The notes under the pieces are model-generated. The model was not told where the DNA came from, ran no database searches, and was given only the letters and a program-made list of their open reading frames with translations. The translations under genes and the position numbers were made by a program. 30,026 nt of DNA from a virus: positions 1-30,026 of IMG/VR virus record IMGVR_UViG_3300044846_000324. One strand, given 5' to 3'. Below, piece by piece: positions 16,777 through 29,060 of the stretch (position 1 is its first letter; the number at the start of each line of letters is the position of its first letter).

Positions 16777-17019
16777 TCAGAACGGAACATCTGCATCTTC
16801 ATCTTGCGGGAAGCCATCATTCTCTTTCGGCTTTGGTGGGTTCAGATAAGCCCAACCATTCCAACCGCCATCGACAAGCGGAGTGCTATCCAGTTTTAGC
16901 ATTGGTCCATTCTTTGTATCGATCACAGAGCCGATGCGCTGATAACGATTCTTACTTTCACCATTCTTATTGACATACTTTCCATTGGTGACGGAAACTT
17001 CGTAAATTGTTTTAGACAT
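16777..17019 (-). CDS. Small protein with SSB-type acidic tail
   Basis: An 80-residue protein. KTIYEVSVTNGKYVNKNGESKNRYQRIGSVI is a beta-rich domain seen in small phage proteins, and the C-terminus PQDEDADVPF copies the acidic, phenylalanine-ending tip of bacterial single-strand DNA-binding proteins. That tip recruits SSB partners. It sits just downstream of the exonuclease and ERF genes, so a single-strand DNA-binding role in recombination or replication is probable, although the family fold is not proven by eye. Confidence 0.6.
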   Translation of the reverse strand: MSKTIYEVSVTNGKYVNKNGESKNRYQRIGSVIDTKNGPMLKLDSTPLVDGGWNGWAYLNPPKPKENDGFPQDEDADVPF

Positions 17020-17674
17020 TTGCTTCTTTCTTTAAGTTAAAAAATTCATGTTGTTCGCTGATCTCGCGAATTACTTTTTCGTAATACTCTCTCGCGGCAT
17101 CAACTTTAAATTTGATCTTGTCTTCTAATGCCTGATCTCGTTTGTAGTGAACAAGCGTCACACGCAAGTCAGGAATAATGTGAGACACATCATGCAGACT
17201 TTGATCTTCCCATCCGATAAGATCATCTGGAGTATCAACCAAGCAGTAAGCAATGCTGAACTCAGGCACATCCCAAAGCATCATGTATGCGCGACCTTGC
17301 CATTCGTATCTGATCTCCTCACCTAGTGATGGCAGGGCGGGGAATGTAGCAAGGCTCCAACTGGATTTGATATCAATGATTCTGTTGTCTCCAACGATAT
17401 CGCACTCACCAGTTATCCAATCATTGTTCTTGCGTTCCTCATTCTTGACATAGCCTGTATTCAAGACAGCGTTAAGCAAGTCAATCGAATCATTCTCAAC
17501 TCGAGTTCCCTTGCTCATGTATTTGTTTGATATGCGCTCGTCATATCCGTAAACAAACTCCTTGGCCATCTTGATGATCGCAGTCTTTGCACCAACCGAA
17601 AGCGTATCGCCTTTGGTCTTTGGCTCTGTCATGATGTCAGCCAGACTTGAAGCCCTGAACCTTTTGATTTTCAT
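17012..17674 (-). CDS. YqaJ / lambda-exonuclease-like recombination nuclease
   Basis: A 220-residue protein with the PD-(D/E)XK plan of phage 5'-3' exonucleases: FRASSLADIM at the start, GTRVEN (56-61), GECD (89-92) and IDIKSSW (100-106), in which E90, D92-type and D101/K103 residues form the metal site, followed by YEWQGRAYMMLW. These enzymes resect double-stranded ends to give single strands for the annealing protein. The start overlaps the ERF stop (ATGA) and the 3' end overlaps the SSB-tailed gene by 8 bases. Confidence 0.85.
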   Translation of the reverse strand: MKIKRFRASSLADIMTEPKTKGDTLSVGAKTAIIKMAKEFVYGYDERISNKYMSKGTRVENDSIDLLNAVLNTGYVKNEERKNNDWITGECDIVGDNRIIDIKSSWSLATFPALPSLGEEIRYEWQGRAYMMLWDVPEFSIAYCLVDTPDDLIGWEDQSLHDVSHIIPDLRVTLVHYKRDQALEDKIKFKVDAAREYYEKVIREISEQHEFFNLKKEANV

Positions 17675-18252
17675 TTGGCTTCCAATCTTGTTTTGACTTC
17701 ATTCTTTTTGGCAATGACTTTCCCTTGCCACTCTTTGCTGTGAGCAGAATCGTGATACGCATTAGCAAATGCTCTACGCAATTCATCCTCTGATGTGCAA
17801 GCATCGATGGCAAGCAAGTGGTCGTGCATCTGACTCTCATTGATCTCAGGCTTCTTGATAACCTTCGTTACATTGCTTGTCTTTGATGCAGAGTTTCCGT
17901 CGTCGTCTTCTGGCGCGATGCCGCAAGCTGACATGAGGCTATATCTCCGAGCGTAAGTCAACGCGCTACCATAACCTTGCGCGTCATGCTTCACCGCAGG
18001 GATGTGCAACTTGCCGCAGTTGAAGCTCTCACCAGACTCATGCAAGAAGATGGTTTCCACAATCACCCCATCATTACACTCGCTTAGTTGCTGAACCAAA
18101 GCTATTCCATTGGCATTCAATCCCTCTATAACGGCCTCAACGCAAGCGGACAGGTCAGCATAGCGGGATTTGAAATGCGGGTTTGTAGAGGTTTTGAGCG
18201 CAGGACCAAAAGCCTTCTGTGCTTTGACCAACGCTGTCGCGATTTGTTTCAT
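17671..18252 (-). CDS. erf: ERF-family single-strand annealing protein
   Basis: A 193-residue protein with the ERF signature: ALVKAQKAFGPALKTSTNPHFKSRYADL (about 7-34), then EAVIEGLNANGIALVQQL, and GYGSALTYARRYSLMSACGI (93-112) before an acidic EDDDGN. P22 Erf-type proteins anneal complementary single strands during phage recombination. The C-terminal part from ~125 is charged and variable as usual. A good AAAGG ribosome binding site precedes the ATG. It forms a two-component recombination pair with the neighbouring exonuclease. Confidence 0.9.
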   Translation of the reverse strand: MKQIATALVKAQKAFGPALKTSTNPHFKSRYADLSACVEAVIEGLNANGIALVQQLSECNDGVIVETIFLHESGESFNCGKLHIPAVKHDAQGYGSALTYARRYSLMSACGIAPEDDDGNSASKTSNVTKVIKKPEINESQMHDHLLAIDACTSEDELRRAFANAYHDSAHSKEWQGKVIAKKNEVKTRLEAK

Positions 18253-19097: not shown

Positions 19098-20066
19098 TCA
19101 AGCTATCAATATGCTCTCAGCTTCTGACTTCATGCGATTGCCATTACCGAACCAAGCATTGTTCATTCGGCTATCGACATTGTGTCCCTTGTTGTGATCG
19201 ATGTATTCAGTCACAGCATTAAGCAATCCCCATCGAGTCCCATTCGCGCCATCGATTGTTGAACCCATACCCTTGCCTTCAAATAGTTCAAGGACTTTGT
19301 TGTATCCGCGAGAAGGTTTGAATGTTGCTGACTTCACATCGAAGTTTGCAGGGAATAAATTGTTCAGGAATTCTTTGACATAAGAAACGCTGACTTGCTG
19401 TCTCGCTAAGTAACGATACTTATCCATCATTCCATCGAATCCACTTACTACCAATCCGAGCTTATCGCGCATCAGACTTGCATCGAACTCTCTGCCATGC
19501 GTGATGTTGAATCGGCTCGGTGCAGTCTCATTGTCAGCCGCAGATAGCGTGTTATTGCAGACAACTCTGACGCTAGTGAACTGACCAATGGTCGCTGTCG
19601 AGCCATCAAAGCTAGTCGATAAAAGTAAGTATCCTTTCACCGCATCATCACCAAGAACGCAAGCCTCCTTATTTGTGTTCGCTAACGCCCAGATTCTTTT
19701 CCCTCCTTTGATAGAACCCGCGACTTCCATTTTGAATCCTGCGCTTTGCATCAGAACATTAAAGAAGTCCAGTACATCCTTGGGCTGATGCAACTTGTAT
19801 CGATCAGTCACCAATCCCAATGGTGCAAGAGTGTCATCACGATAAACAACATTCTGTCTTTGTACTTCTTTGATATCGCCAAAGTTATCTGGCTTATAAA
19901 GAACCTTCGCGACCTTCGCTTGCCAATCAAGTCCTGACATCTTTGCCCATGTCTCGATATCCGCATCTGGGTTTAGTTGCTGACCAAGACCATGCCAAGG
20001 TTTCTGTCCGACATAAGCGATCTCAGCCATGCCTGTCATTTCGTTTGTTTCGATTAAGTGAGCCAT
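19098..20066 (-). CDS. DUF932 phage/plasmid-like protein
   Basis: A 322-residue protein with AAAGGGAAA before its ATG. MAHLIETNEMTGMAEIAYVG, KPWHGLGQQL, LGLVTDRYKLHQPKDVLDFF, KGGKRIWALAN and the FDGSTATIGQFTSVRVVCNNTL core are the pattern of the DUF932 / TIGR03299 family, widespread in phages and plasmids (related to plasmid LGT/StbA-type unknowns). The biochemical role is not known. The gene lies between the amidoligase/cyclotransferase group and promoter 1, so the first leftward transcript probably covers amidoligase to DUF932. Confidence 0.88.
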   Translation of the reverse strand: MAHLIETNEMTGMAEIAYVGQKPWHGLGQQLNPDADIETWAKMSGLDWQAKVAKVLYKPDNFGDIKEVQRQNVVYRDDTLAPLGLVTDRYKLHQPKDVLDFFNVLMQSAGFKMEVAGSIKGGKRIWALANTNKEACVLGDDAVKGYLLLSTSFDGSTATIGQFTSVRVVCNNTLSAADNETAPSRFNITHGREFDASLMRDKLGLVVSGFDGMMDKYRYLARQQVSVSYVKEFLNNLFPANFDVKSATFKPSRGYNKVLELFEGKGMGSTIDGANGTRWGLLNAVTEYIDHNKGHNVDSRMNNAWFGNGNRMKSEAESILIA

Positions 20067-20076
20067 GATTTCCCTT

Positions 20077-20526
20077 TCAGTTGTAAGAATTAAATTGATC
20101 GCAGATTTCCTGCGTCAGCATGAGCGCGTCTTCGAGTGCATCCAGTTGCAAGCCACAGTCTTTGTATCCATCTGCAATCGACTTGTAATATCCGTGGGTC
20201 GGTGAGCCATAGTCAATTGAGTTCATGTAGTAAGCAATGGCAGGAACTGGCGAACCTTTCTGTTTGTGAACCATGAATGTGTCACGCTCATAAACGCTTG
20301 GCCATCCTTCGTACCTATCGAGGGCGGCTAAACAGGCGTCTGTGATTCGCCAGAGTCCAACCAATACCTCTGAGCCACGATCAGATTCAATGTCTGCAAC
20401 GCCCCTAAAAACGAGCCTGTGGTTCTTGAGCTTTCCTGTGCCAACAAAGACAGCTTTCGGACAACGCACCGCCATCTGTGCATGGTTGAGGTTGCTTCCG
20501 TATGCGGCATAAATATAAGTCTTCAT
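20077..20526 (-). CDS. Gamma-glutamylcyclotransferase-like (AIG2/GGCT family)
   Basis: A 149-residue protein with AYGSNLN near residue 8-14, the phosphate/substrate loop of the family; ADIESDRGSEVLVGLWRIT as the next strands; and ALDRYEGWPSVYERDTF, in which E73 is the position of the catalytic glutamate. GGCT enzymes release 5-oxoproline from gamma-glutamyl amine linkages. It is 2 bases from the preceding small gene and in one unit with an amidoligase, which would make such amide bonds. This pairing suggests making and trimming of gamma-glutamyl or similar modifications. Confidence 0.85.
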   Translation of the reverse strand: MKTYIYAAYGSNLNHAQMAVRCPKAVFVGTGKLKNHRLVFRGVADIESDRGSEVLVGLWRITDACLAALDRYEGWPSVYERDTFMVHKQKGSPVPAIAYYMNSIDYGSPTHGYYKSIADGYKDCGLQLDALEDALMLTQEICDQFNSYN

Positions 20527-20528
20527 GT

Positions 20529-20774
20529 TTAATCCAATGTAATAGCGATAACAAATTCGTGGTCGATAAGGTCTTCTAGGAATGCATCGTAGTTATCGGT
20601 TCTGATAAACGATGCATTGTCTAGGTGGCATCGATGTGCAACAGCATCCATAAACTCGGCAAGGTTCTTCTCCTTGTTCATCGATGTGTGTCGCATCTTC
20701 TCTGCAAATTCCTTGGCATCGGAGGCGAGGACAAAGCCCCCTCCTGAAAATAAGTAAGCTGTCTTGCTGATCAT
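20529..20774 (-). CDS. 81-residue protein between amidoligase and cyclotransferase
   Basis: Starts in an ATGA overlap with the amidoligase gene. MISKTAYLFSGGGFVLASDA, then EFAEKMRHTSMNKEKNLAEFMDAVAHRCHLDNASFI and DAFLEDLIDHEFVIAITLD: a small alpha/beta protein with an acidic end. I do not recognise a family. Because it lies between two enzymes of opposite chemistry, it may be a substrate, a partner or an inhibitor of them; this is only position-based. Confidence 0.65.
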   Translation of the reverse strand: MISKTAYLFSGGGFVLASDAKEFAEKMRHTSMNKEKNLAEFMDAVAHRCHLDNASFIRTDNYDAFLEDLIDHEFVIAITLD

Positions 20775-21577
20775 GCTGTCACCTCTTTAGAAAATTTAAC
20801 TGCGCGCTTCTTGTAGAACTTCGCTGTGTAGTTACCGATGTGGCCTCTGCGAACCATTCCTGCCAACATTGTGTCGAGGGCTTCTTTGGCTGTCGTCACT
20901 TGCGTGAAGTTCTTGATTGCGACATGGTCTTGCGCGTCTTTGACCATTGCGAATGTCAAGCGGATGTACTGTTCAACCTTGTCGGCTTCAACTGTTCCCG
21001 CATGATTGCGGAACTCAACTGAACCCATGCGGAAGAAAGACTGCAAGTTCAGCTTGTAGTAGCGATTGCTTCCGTAAGCTGTCGACAATTGCTGAACTGT
21101 TGTGCAACGATCGATCTTAGCGAATGTCTCTGCAACTGTATTCATCACGATGCTTTTGCAAAAGCGATTGTTGTTGGCGCGACGGCTCGTTGGCTGAACG
21201 CTGTCGAGTGCGAGTTCAAATTTAACAAAACGCTTGAACAAATTACGGAACTCTTGGATGCCCCAGTTCTTTGCATTGTGGTGAATGTGGAAACCGCAAG
21301 ACTGGTTGACCTTAGCACCGATCGCTACCAAGACTTCGCAAACCTTGCGAGCTTCTGCGATTCCTGCCTCGCCTTCCAAGATTGGGCTGACAACTTCGAA
21401 GCCGTTGACTCCGTTGATCGAACCATCAGTCTTGATTTGCCAGAGTGCATAGTTGCTACCAGAGTAGCCAGAGGTGATCGCGTTGACACCTGCATTGACC
21501 AATGCTTGAGCCACTTGGATTTGTGTAGCGTTGAAGCACTCGAGTTCGATTCCAAATTTGCCTGTTACCATTTTCAT
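20771..21577 (-). CDS. Amidoligase (Amidoligase_2, COOH-NH2 ligase)
   Basis: A 268-residue protein with the glutamine-synthetase-like fold motifs of the putative amidoligase family: GIELE (9-13), a QIKTDGSI strand with D51, FEVVSP (60-65), CGFHIHH (94-100) and EFRNHAGT (188-195). The paired Glu and His residues fit an ATP- and metal-binding ligase that joins an amine to a carboxylate. This is the first gene of the leftward operon, just after promoter 2. Comparative work by Iyer, Aravind and colleagues linked this family to AIG2-like cyclotransferases in phages and bacteria; here the two are separated by one small gene. The substrate is unknown. Confidence 0.85.
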   Translation of the reverse strand: MKMVTGKFGIELECFNATQIQVAQALVNAGVNAITSGYSGSNYALWQIKTDGSINGVNGFEVVSPILEGEAGIAEARKVCEVLVAIGAKVNQSCGFHIHHNAKNWGIQEFRNLFKRFVKFELALDSVQPTSRRANNNRFCKSIVMNTVAETFAKIDRCTTVQQLSTAYGSNRYYKLNLQSFFRMGSVEFRNHAGTVEADKVEQYIRLTFAMVKDAQDHVAIKNFTQVTTAKEALDTMLAGMVRRGHIGNYTAKFYKKRAVKFSKEVTA

Positions 21578-21617
21578 TCTCCTTGAGAGGGTTTAAAAGA
21601 CCGCGTTTTGTTTGCGG

Positions 21618-21690
21618 CATAGGTGAATTGTAAGGCAACTTATCAAATAAATAGTCCGAATATAAAAATAAATGTAGGTGATTACCCTAG
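21618..21690 (-). promoter_or_regulatory. Leftward promoter 2 with operator-like blocks
   Basis: On the minus strand TACAAT (plus-strand ATTGTA, 21627-21632) lies ~50 bases before the amidoligase start. The surrounding GGTGAATTGTAAG and CTTATCA match promoter 1, and TAGGTGATTACCCTA (21675-21689) lies at exactly the same distance (48 bases between the left edges of the two elements) as in promoter 1. GGTGATTACC is an imperfect palindrome, as expected for a dimeric repressor. Confidence 0.65.
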
Positions 21691-21718
21691 TTCCCTATGA
21701 AGATGGCTTAAAAAACTG

Positions 21719-21746
21719 TTGCTTTTTCGCTAATCCGCCTTAAAAT
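21719..21746 (+). promoter_or_regulatory. Rightward promoter for the Cro-like gene (leaderless)
   Basis: TTGCTT (21719-21724), a 16-base spacer and TAAAAT (21741-21746) make a sigma-70-type promoter. The ATG of the Cro-like gene begins at 21753, only 6 bases after the -10, so transcription should start at or next to the A of the ATG. No ribosome binding site is present. Confidence 0.65.
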
Positions 21747-21752
21747 TACTGC

Positions 21753-21920
21753 ATGAAAACACAAACCGCAATCGAAAAAGCAGGCTCTATCAAGCAACTC
21801 GCTGAGTTACTAGGTATCAGCCGACCCGCGATCTCCCAATGGGGCGAAGATGTTCCAACTATGAGAGTCTTTCAACTGAAGGCAATCAGACCTGATTGGT
21901 TTATCAATGAAGCCGCCTGA
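21753..21920 (+). CDS. Cro-like repressor (small HTH protein)
   Basis: A 55-residue protein: MKTQTAIEKAGSIKQLAELL, then GISRPAISQWGEDVPTMRVF and QLKAIRPDWFINEAA. This is the Cro/YdaS-type helix-turn-helix, with SIKQLAELLGISRPAISQWG as helices 2 and 3. It lies in a divergent arrangement with the leftward early operon, the classic place for a Cro-type regulator. Candidate operators are the GTGATTACC blocks on its left. No CI-type partner is encoded here. The transcript appears leaderless. Confidence 0.85.
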   Translation: MKTQTAIEKAGSIKQLAELLGISRPAISQWGEDVPTMRVFQLKAIRPDWFINEAA

Positions 21921-26024: not shown

Positions 26025-26672
26025 ATGGATAAAAAACTGATTATCAAATATAAAAAAACTTCTGAGCTAATCCCTTATGCAATGAACAGCCGCACTCACA
26101 ATGAGCAACAAGTGGGGCAGATTGCGGCATCAATCAAAGCATTCGGTTTCACCAATCCAGTATTACTCGATGGAGACAACGGCATCATTGCGGGTCATGG
26201 TCGCGTGATGGCGGCACAGAAGCTCAACTTAGATCAAGTTCCTACAATTGAGTTGTCTCACTTTGATGAAAATCAGAAGCGAGCTTATGTCATCACAGAT
26301 AATAAGTTGGCTTTGAACGCAGGATGGGACAGCGAGTTCTTGGCCTCAGAGATTCAGACTTTAGAGTTTGAAGAATTTGATCTGAGCCTACTGGGTTTCA
26401 CAGTTGAGGACTTGGCTCGTCTTGCTGACGATCAGGACTTGGCGAAGATTCAAGCGATGGCTGATGTTGAAGATGAAGATGACTTAGATGATATTGATCA
26501 AAGCGATAAGGCAGATAAGCCGAAGCAAGAGTTATATCCTTTGTCAGTCATGCTAGATCATGATCAGCGAGAGGTTGTCTTTGCGGCTCTTAAGCAAGCA
26601 AAGAGAGATAAGCAACTGGAAAACAGCAGTCAAGCAATTTGGTTTATTTGTAAGGAGTACATAAATGAGTAA
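26025..26672 (+). CDS. ParB-like N-terminal-domain protein
   Basis: A 215-residue protein with GTGAGGA before the ATG. SELIPYAMNSRTHNEQQVGQIAASIKAFGFTNPVLLDGDNGIIAGHGRVMAAQKL is the ParB N-terminal (ParB/Srx) domain; GHGR at 57-60 is the nucleotide-binding box. VPTIELSHFDENQKRAYVITDNKLALNAGWD follows, as in ParB-like parts of phage methylase fusions, but no methylase is attached here. The C-terminal ~70 residues include an acidic patch (DVEDEDDLDDID). It overlaps the cupin gene by 8 bases and may be a NTPase or DNA nuclease/adaptor. Confidence 0.85.
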   Translation: MDKKLIIKYKKTSELIPYAMNSRTHNEQQVGQIAASIKAFGFTNPVLLDGDNGIIAGHGRVMAAQKLNLDQVPTIELSHFDENQKRAYVITDNKLALNAGWDSEFLASEIQTLEFEEFDLSLLGFTVEDLARLADDQDLAKIQAMADVEDEDDLDDIDQSDKADKPKQELYPLSVMLDHDQREVVFAALKQAKRDKQLENSSQAIWFICKEYINE

Positions 26673-27369
26673 AGCGTTTTCAACATTTGAATTTAAGAAC
26701 GGAAAGATAGCTGACTTGGACAGAAAATATCCGAGTTATTTATCTGCATTTGACTTTCACCTGACCATGCCTGATGGTGATACACACTATGTCTATTGCT
26801 ACGAGGACACAGCGACCGTTCTTTATAACGATCTGCATTTCACTCTAAAGACTGGAATGTTCGGATGCTTTCCTGGTCGTGTCCGAATCTTAGGAGGGAA
26901 AGGCATTGTCGTAAGCCGACAAGGTTACATGGGATTGATGAGTATCGGTGGACCCGCAGAGAATGAAGGTCGCCTGAAGTACATTGATGGTTGCACAGAT
27001 AGCTTATTGATTCCACCAATCATGCTTGGCGATCCTTGCTTGAATCTCTTGTACTTCCCGCCAGACATTGATCAGACAGCGCACACTCACCCGAGTGATC
27101 GAATTGGTATTGTCATGTCAGGAAAAGGAAAGTGCGTTGCATGGCAAGATGGCGTCGAAGAATCAATTGATCTGGTTGCAGGAATGATTTGGGTTATCCA
27201 TACAGATGGAGTCCATAAGTTCCAAACACCATATGGAGAATCAATGCGCGTCTTGGCTTATCACCCTGATAGTGATTATGGACCAACGCACCAATTCCAT
27301 CCGATGCTGAACCGCACAATCGTTGATGGCATCAGCGCGAATCAATTGCCAGAAATTCAGACAAAGTAA
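26665..27369 (+). CDS. Double cupin protein
   Basis: A 234-residue protein. A first beta-barrel spans about 50-115 (TLKTGMFGCFPGRVRILGGKGIVVSRQGYMGLMSIGG). A second, metal-binding barrel has HTHPSDRIGIVMSGKGKC (140-157) and a VAGMIWVIHTDGVHKFQT strand, giving His140, His142, His179 and His184 as likely metal ligands. The C-terminus has YGPTHQFHPMLNRTIVDG. Phage cupins near PAPS-reductase-like genes are of unknown function; the fold suits a small-molecule dioxygenase, isomerase or sensor. It lies between ParB-like and PAPS-reductase-like genes with tiny gaps. Confidence 0.8.
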   Translation: MSKAFSTFEFKNGKIADLDRKYPSYLSAFDFHLTMPDGDTHYVYCYEDTATVLYNDLHFTLKTGMFGCFPGRVRILGGKGIVVSRQGYMGLMSIGGPAENEGRLKYIDGCTDSLLIPPIMLGDPCLNLLYFPPDIDQTAHTHPSDRIGIVMSGKGKCVAWQDGVEESIDLVAGMIWVIHTDGVHKFQTPYGESMRVLAYHPDSDYGPTHQFHPMLNRTIVDGISANQLPEIQTK

Positions 27370-27370
27370 C

Positions 27371-28558
27371 ATGGCACGAATTCACAAGAAGGAAGTTGTT
27401 GAAGGTATCAATGTCTATGATGCGGCTATCGAGAGATTCCGCTATTTGTTTGATAACTTTGATAAGGTCGTCATTTCATTTAGTGGCGGCAAAGACTCGA
27501 CAGTCTGTCTGAACCTTGCCATGCAAGTGGCGAAGGAAAAAAACAAATTACCGCTTGATGTTTATTTTTGGGATGAGGAAGCAATCCACCCAGAGACAAT
27601 CGATTATGTTGAGCGTGTAAGGCAGAACCCCGACATTAAATTTAAGTGGCTATGCGTACCTATCAAGCACAGGAACGCTTGCTCAAGGTCTGAGCCTTAT
27701 TGGTATTGTTGGGATGAGACAAAGAAGGATAAGTGGGTTCGCCCAATGCCTGACAATCCTGATGTAGTCAAAGAAGTTAAGGGCTTCAAGATGGGCGACA
27801 CAGTTCCTGATGTTGCTCACTTTGTCTATGGTCCTGAACATGGGACTGTGGCTGATGTGCGTGGCATCAGGGCTGATGAGAGCTTGCGTCGTTACCGAAG
27901 CGTGGCGATGAAAACAAAGAACAACTGGATTGGCGCACCTCGAGTAGGACACAACTATCCAGTAAGCCCGATCTATGATTGGACAACCTTTGATGTTTGG
28001 ACAGCACCAAGATTATTCGGATGGGACTATAACCACTCTTATGATCTGATGGCGATGGTTGGTCAGTTGCCAAGCGACCAAAGGGTCTGTCCACCATACG
28101 GAGAGGAGCCTCTGTCGGGTCTTTGGATATATAAGCAATGTTGGCCTGAGATGTGGCACAAGATGATTGGAAGGGTGCATGGCGCGGCAACAGCAGGGCG
28201 ATATGCAATTACAGAACTCTACGGCTATGGGAAGCTCGAGTTACCGCAGGGAAAGACTTGGCGGCAATGGACTTATGATTTGCTTGAAATCTATCCAAAG
28301 CATCTGAGGGCGCAAGTCGCGGCAAACATCGCAGGGCTTATCGCTATTCACAAAAGCAAGACCAACAGACCGATACATGAAACAGAGACAGACATGGTCA
28401 CTGGTCTGAGTTGGAAATTCCTTTGCATGATTGCTAATCGCGGTGATCTGAAACAAAGGCGCGTCAATCAAGTGACCGCAAATGCAAACCTCGCCCGAGA
28501 CAAAGCGGGTATCACCTTAGAAGAATTGACGGAGCAAGATCATGATTCACGATACTGA
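27371..28558 (+). CDS. PAPS-reductase-like protein (IbrA-like)
   Basis: A 395-residue protein; start at MARIHKKEVVEGINVYDAAI. KVVISFSGGKDSTVCLNLA has the SGGKDS PP-loop (38-43) that binds and adenylates substrates. DVYFWDEEAIHPETIDYVERV and the later DVRGIRADESLRRYRS follow the pattern of phage and plasmid PAPS-reductase-like proteins. The C-terminal half, WIYKQCWPEMWHKMIGRVHGAATAGRYAITELYG, matches DUF3440-type proteins such as E. coli IbrA. True PAPS reductases have a C-terminal ECGLH motif, which I do not see, so reduction of PAPS itself is doubtful. Overlaps the following ParB-like gene by 17 bases. Confidence 0.85.
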   Translation: MARIHKKEVVEGINVYDAAIERFRYLFDNFDKVVISFSGGKDSTVCLNLAMQVAKEKNKLPLDVYFWDEEAIHPETIDYVERVRQNPDIKFKWLCVPIKHRNACSRSEPYWYCWDETKKDKWVRPMPDNPDVVKEVKGFKMGDTVPDVAHFVYGPEHGTVADVRGIRADESLRRYRSVAMKTKNNWIGAPRVGHNYPVSPIYDWTTFDVWTAPRLFGWDYNHSYDLMAMVGQLPSDQRVCPPYGEEPLSGLWIYKQCWPEMWHKMIGRVHGAATAGRYAITELYGYGKLELPQGKTWRQWTYDLLEIYPKHLRAQVAANIAGLIAIHKSKTNRPIHETETDMVTGLSWKFLCMIANRGDLKQRRVNQVTANANLARDKAGITLEELTEQDHDSRY

Positions 28559-29060
28559 TAAGCAACCAATAAGCAGAGTTAAGTGGGTTGATCGCCAGAC
28601 ACTTAAACCCAATGACTACAATCCAAACAAGGTCGCACCGCCTGAGATGGAATTGCTTATCACCTCAATCCTTGAGGATGGATGGACACAGCCAATCGTT
28701 ATCTTGCCAGACAGCACAATTGTTGATGGCTTCCATCGGTACACAGTAAGCGCAGATAAACGCCTGATGGCTCGATTTGGTGGCTTAGTGCCGACTGTAA
28801 CTGTGGACATCGATCCAGTTCACAGGCAGATGAGTACCATTCGCCACAATCGTGCGCGAGGAACTCATGGCATCTTACCAATGGCGGCAATCGTCAGACA
28901 CATTGTCAATGAAGGAGTCAGCAAGGAAGAAATCCAAGCGAGGCTCGGAATGGAAGATGAGGAAGTTGATCGCTTAGTTGATCGCGCAGGGATGCCGATA
29001 CAGGCAGGGCGCAAACAAGAAGGCTTCGGTAATTCTTGGAAACCTAAAGCGTTTGAATAA
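28542..29060 (+). CDS. ParB-like protein (IbrB-like)
   Basis: A 172-residue protein. VDRQTLKPNDYNPNKVAPPEMELLITSILEDGWTQPIVILPDSTIVDGFHRYTVS is a ParB N-terminal domain; the GxxR box is DGFHR (62-66). A second helical domain (AAIVRHIVNEGVSKEEIQARLGMEDEEVDRLVDRAGMP) looks like helix-turn-helix. Together with the preceding gene it reproduces the IbrA-IbrB pair described in E. coli, which raises expression of prophage-borne genes. Low sequence similarity to the other ParB-like protein 2.5 kb upstream makes a recent duplication unlikely. Confidence 0.82.
   Translation: MIHDTDKQPISRVKWVDRQTLKPNDYNPNKVAPPEMELLITSILEDGWTQPIVILPDSTIVDGFHRYTVSADKRLMARFGGLVPTVTVDIDPVHRQMSTIRHNRARGTHGILPMAAIVRHIVNEGVSKEEIQARLGMEDEEVDRLVDRAGMPIQAGRKQEGFGNSWKPKAFE

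Follow-up and report, generated by a model that had tools for sequence, protein, structure and literature searches.

A small protein family linked to phage Amidoligase_2 enzymes: a candidate two-component gamma-glutamyl-type ligase with an optional cyclotransferase

The stretch of DNA analysed here (the window) is a 30-kb phage contig, positions 1 to 30,026 of the IMG/VR record IMGVR_UViG_3300044846_000324. Its minus strand carries four consecutive genes with overlaps or with gaps of at most 10 nt, encoding an amidoligase (the ligase), an 81-residue protein (S), a gamma-glutamyl cyclotransferase (GGCT) and a DUF932 protein (Table 1). The ligase and S genes overlap by 4 bp (ATGA, 20771-20774), S is followed by GGCT after 2 nt, and GGCT by DUF932 after 10 nt, in agreement with the order and tight spacing of the first three genes given in a first-pass annotation made from the sequence alone. 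The ligase of one relative (L003) is 94% identical to that of the window, with 51 synonymous versus 15 non-synonymous codon differences, and the corresponding S genes differ by 8 synonymous versus 4 non-synonymous codons. Because these substitutions are mostly synonymous and hundreds of loci contain homologues, the genes are real rather than chance ORFs. The ligase ORF does extend to 21577, where the annotation had opened it, but translation probably starts at the second ATG (21571), which has AAGGAG 7 nt upstream and is equivalent to the codon at which the L003 ligase begins.

Table 1. Features of the window around the amidoligase operon
Feature	Position	Strand	Evidence
Amidoligase_2 (predicted GS-fold carboxylate-amine ligase)	20771..21577	-	PF12224 E 2.5e-37; likely start codon 21571
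81-residue partner protein, family S	20529..20774	-	AF2 model; linkage to amidoligase loci
Gamma-glutamyl cyclotransferase (GGCT/AIG2 family)	20077..20526	-	PF06094 E 7.9e-12; phrog_2520 E 7.5e-33
DUF932/TIGR03299 protein, gene 4 of conserved block	19098..20066	-	PF06067 9.3e-54; TIGR03299 1.7e-86
ERF-type single-strand annealing protein, downstream of operon genes	17671..18252	-	PF04404 1.8e-22
Phage exonuclease, downstream of operon genes	17012..17674	-	phrog_5715 1.5e-63
Cro-like repressor, divergent from operon	21753..21920	+	PF14549 P22_Cro 1.2e-11

The genes had also been placed under the first leftward promoter. Their position, divergent from the Cro-like gene, is consistent with this, but a consensus search of the divergent gap gave no sigma-70-like promoter between 21577 and 21753. 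The gap itself (21578-21752, 175 bp) contains no CI-like repressor gene. The site resembles the leftward early operon in lambdoid phages, and its position would point to early expression. The Rz-like spanin and endolysin genes of the window suggest a Gram-negative host; RNA families and tRNAs were not found in the window. Elsewhere on the contig, a PAPS-reductase-like gene (phrog_2302 1.7e-87) overlaps a ParB-like gene (phrog_2159 3.3e-64) at 27323-29060 (+), a pair that is weakly similar to DndC, SspD and BrxP and that we take to resemble IbrA/IbrB. A second ParB-like gene lies at 26025-26672 (+); its product, although only 215 aa long, aligns with the N-terminal portion of a PADLOC model for a type II methyltransferase (2.2e-37).

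The assignment of the first enzyme proved sound: the ligase scores 129.5 bits against PF12224, for which the curated cut-off is 22 bits, and contains the GS-type metal/ATP residue pattern (ExE, E, HxH, ExR). Residues E11, E13, E61, H97, H99, R132, E188 and R190 are invariant in 48 aligned homologues, and the motifs quoted by the annotation (GIELE, CGFHIHH and EFRNHAGT in the ligase; YGSNL and RYEGW in GGCT) are all present. Because a sequence search of solved structures with the ligase gave no significant match, a fold search was used. The AF2 model (pLDDT 95.2, pTM 0.92) is predicted to have the glutamine-synthetase (GS) fold, the closest solved folds being YbdK (Z 14.6), GS (about 14), glutamate-cysteine ligase (13.1), GmaS (12.9) and Dop (12.8), with VIA Z 12-15 across about 220 residues for GS/YbdK. 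Every one of these neighbours acts on a gamma-glutamyl carboxylate or amide, which makes gamma-glutamyl chemistry the natural guess for the ligase, a guess drawn from the fold neighbours and the link to GGCT rather than from substrate-pocket residues.

Some relatives of the ligase carry extra domains: a C-terminal winged-helix/DUF3489-like extension is found at L185:5992-6930, L138 and L155, and an N-terminal HTH-like one in relatives from Bacteroidota. These extensions hint at DNA association. Such extensions (L185), together with a DNA methyltransferase near the amidoligase in L006, L013 and L014, would fit a role in DNA hypermodification, in which a carboxylated base would be coupled by the ligase to an amine or an amino acid, as 5-carboxymethylcytosine is by CmoY. 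CmoY, which works with CmoA/CmoX, is a published phage amide-ligase precedent in DNA hypermodification (PMC12783734). However, CmoY is AMP-forming and asparagine-synthetase-like rather than GS-fold, neither a methyltransferase nor CmoA/CmoX (Cx-SAM synthase, carboxymethyltransferase) was found among the ORFs scanned in this incomplete 30-kb contig, and GGCT would have no obvious role. We regard this reading as very unlikely.

The third gene was likewise correctly assigned, and its YGSN loop is present. With the GGCT family profile, human GGCT (2i5t) is hit at E 3.6e-17, and E73 of the window protein (in RYEGW), invariant in the alignment of GGCT homologues, aligns with the glutamate of human LDEQEG, the catalytic Glu98. 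The catalytic residues have thus been retained in both enzymes, as the annotation had supposed, and both look catalytically active because of their family matches and conserved catalytic residues, in the case of the ligase also because of the predicted fold.

The middle protein has no family entry in Pfam, PHROG or NCBIfam. Its AF2 model (pLDDT 93, pTM 0.83; beta-beta-alpha-alpha-alpha-beta) confidently predicts a compact, well-folded protein. Comparison with solved structures was informative neither by Foldseek/PDB (best E 0.84) nor by VIA (best Z 2.9), and BFVD gave four good matches, three without a name and one uncharacterised. S looks like an orphan because single-protein searches return almost nothing; those with the window S found only two loci, both beside an amidoligase. 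As far as could be found, it nevertheless represents a new, widespread and unannotated family. Across 42 sequences F65 is the sole invariant residue; there is no invariant Lys, Glu or Asp, and D68 is present in 37. A Pup- or LysW-like C-terminus was considered and rejected, as a C-terminal Glu/Gln is not conserved and the last position is occupied by 18 different residues in the same 42 sequences. Residues 22-75 weakly match the same stretch of phrog_2695 (531 positions; E 0.0025) and PADLOC PDC-S25 (528 positions; E 0.0063). Short ORFs beside S-less amidoligases (L008:6238-6456, L011:5866-6090, L070:1350-1550) look, on visual inspection, like the helical core of S; they miss the S profile and were left out of the S counts.

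A profile of S, made without positional information from amidoligase loci, so that a remote branch living elsewhere could escape it, gave 188 matches among the 18,775 ORFs in 298 loci. In 186 cases an amidoligase is no more than 700 bp away, which supports a dedicated partner and is in line with the annotation's view of the middle protein as a candidate substrate or regulator, and the remaining two matches are at fragment ends, where an upstream gene would be cut off. Because most of the 298 loci, which include near-copies and fragments, had been fetched through the ligase or GGCT, S-seeded searches were added. The ligase was found just upstream of S in 25 of 25 testable loci of the first S-seeded set and in all 11 of the second, each of the latter having the order ligase-S-GGCT. 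Whole bacterial genomes, complete or draft, picked for carrying the pair (n = 10) have exactly one S match each. Among 121 genomes of one family, centre genome included, Amidoligase_2 occurs in three and a clear S match in the centre genome only, 129 bp past its amidoligase match. A marginal match in G126 (E 2.6e-4), which spans half of the profile and lies within a frame of 564 aa, may be due to chance; it is similar to the partial matches of S with phrog_2695 and PDC-S25.

The ligase and S genes overlap by exactly 4 bp in 33 of 102 pairs, as judged from mechanical ORF starts. Across 37 loci, pairwise distances correlate more strongly between ligase and S (rho 0.70) than between ligase and GGCT (0.37) or S and GGCT (0.31), a pattern that can also come from co-inheritance of neighbouring genes. 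No natural ligase-S fusion (Rosetta stone) was found among amidoligase ORFs. By the frequent 4-bp overlap, the lack of S elsewhere and the correlated divergence, the ligase and S are the tightest unit of the operon, and for the same reasons an obligate subunit or adaptor fits S best. S is very probably the obligate, dedicated partner of its ligase. It is not required by every Amidoligase_2, because clades with a direct GGCT or a class-II glutamine amidotransferase (GATase) have no detectable S. At L151:5390-5641, L157:3630-3881 and L040:353-604, a further copy of S directly precedes the amidoligase, placing S on both flanks.

S could instead be the substrate, which the ligase would amidate, extend or conjugate to proteins like Pup, with GGCT removing the mark. 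The gene order and the GS-type enzyme are reminiscent of Pup/PafA, one fold neighbour of the ligase is Dop, and S co-varies with the ligase and is similar in size to known tags. We nevertheless consider this unlikely: the C-terminal residue is unconserved, S is predicted to be compact rather than a flexible tag, GGCT is absent from most S loci, and no acceptor side chain is invariant, although modification at the N- or C-terminus would need none. A long shot is a full protein-conjugation system, in which the ligase would, early in infection, attach S, or a gamma-glutamyl unit on S, to targets of the host or the phage, with GGCT reversing or recycling the product; if true, this would be a counterpart of the ubiquitin and Pup pathways assembled from unrelated components.

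The position of GGCT is different. It lies within 1.5 kb in 26 of the 102 S-bearing amidoligase loci, leaving 76 without it, and none was found in full contigs of the Bacteroidota type. In the 80 GGCT-seeded loci, the ligase is directly upstream in 40 (S being present in 26 of the 80) and downstream in 15 more, many of the rest being fragments. GGCT is an optional third enzyme of the ligase-S unit. The first-pass annotation had proposed that the opposite chemistries of the flanking enzymes add and remove a gamma-glutamyl-type tag; such a cycle is one of several possible uses of GGCT, but as a general rule it does not hold, because most S loci lack GGCT.

Partner choice was compared across 160 ligase-fetched loci (80 viral and 80 genomic), in which S occurs in 102, GGCT in 40 and a class-II GATase in 32. 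With kinship ignored, S and the class-II GATase were never found together (20.4 expected if independent), nor were GGCT and the class-II GATase beside the same ligase (8.0 expected); S and GGCT co-occur independently (26 seen, 25.5 expected), and these 26 loci, together with the second S-seeded set, agree with the predicted conservation of the trio in relatives. Downstream, at a distance of up to 4 kb, DUF932 follows in 15 of the 26 ligase-S-GGCT loci versus 0 of the 134 other amidoligase loci. On a tree of 191 ligases the partner types are each clustered, yet each needs several changes, and because of this clustering both exclusivities probably reflect clades in part.

The exclusivity of GGCT and GATase invites another reading, in which GGCT is equivalent to a class-II GATase, freeing an amine from a gamma-glutamyl donor that the ligase would join to a carboxylate; the set would then be an amidotransferase and not a pair that adds and removes a tag. 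In phage C75C1 (L013:6699-7595), a class-II GATase-like N-terminus (GATase_4 E 9.4e-05, just below the Pfam cut-off) is fused to GGCT (PF06094 2.7e-21) and adjoins an amidoligase. The same fusion, and the presence of both enzymes in one cassette of LUZ24, show that they are not strict substitutes, and S is likewise exclusive with GATase, so that the pattern may be clade-driven. This reading is possible, though we regard it as doubtful.

Combined with the above analysis, the locus is best explained as a two-component, ATP-dependent phage ligase of gamma-glutamyl type with an optional GGCT, a mechanism to which, taken as a whole, we give a probability of roughly 40%. The minimal GS-fold ligase would most likely phosphorylate, and so activate, a glutamate-type (gamma) carboxylate before joining it to an amine. 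We infer that S binds the ligase, most likely as a small subunit or adaptor that completes or directs the active site and less likely as a protein substrate. Translational coupling would keep the two proteins in matched amounts. Where present, GGCT would split gamma-glutamyl amides into 5-oxoproline and free amine, a step that may clear or reverse the ligase product or supply the amine. The module shares the leftward, probably early, operon with recombination genes.

Amidoligases have long been annotated in phages without a known substrate, and the ligase with S and the optional GGCT defines a unit for cloning, purification and assay. S may explain why single-enzyme views of the amidoligase family are incomplete, and it could serve as a marker for finding such systems in prophages, among others those of Bacteroidota and Desulfovibrionaceae.

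Among known systems, the Amidoligase_2 (PF12224) neighbourhoods reportedly described by Iyer et al. in 2009 place a GS-fold amidoligase by an AIG2/GGCT or a glutamine-amidotransferase gene; to our knowledge, neither the small partner S nor its strict linkage is described there. As far as could be found, the family S and its strict linkage to the ligase are new and the amidoligase-GGCT pair was already known. The family link that the first-pass annotation credited to published genome surveys is indeed on record, amidoligase-GGCT and amidoligase-amidotransferase links being cited in PMC11318856 and PMC5498523.

The cassettes of RIO-1/LUZ24/phiEco32-like podoviruses share Amidoligase_2 and GGCT with the window, among early/replication genes (PMC5498523, PMC3890496), and have been proposed to change the cell surface and block superinfection (PMC5498523). 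A similar modification of the envelope, at the peptidoglycan peptide, would suit the enzyme families in common and the S relatives in GGCT-first loci (e.g. L251 and L274). But the published role is itself only a proposal, and those cassettes have an additional COOH-NH2 ligase, GATase and ATP-grasp, none of which was found in the window ORFs scanned (GATase in no frame of this incomplete contig). LUZ24 carries the extended cassette, GATase and GGCT included, and S was not detected in it (gp20 E 0.35). Envelope modification therefore seems improbable for the window. In Heliusvirales and Clostridium prophages (L006, L009, L014), phrog_2443 adjoins phrog_2520 as the amidoligase and GGCT do here (PMC11318856), and no S was detected in these three loci. 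The Pup system (PafA/Dop/Pup) also combines a GS-fold enzyme with a small protein; unlike Pup, S lacks conservation of a C-terminal Glu/Gln and is predicted to be compact. Compared with YbdK, glutamate-cysteine ligase, GmaS and glutamine synthetase, the window ligase is smaller (266-268 aa) and only about 10-16% identical, and it has the predicted fold and the catalytic residue pattern in common with all of them.
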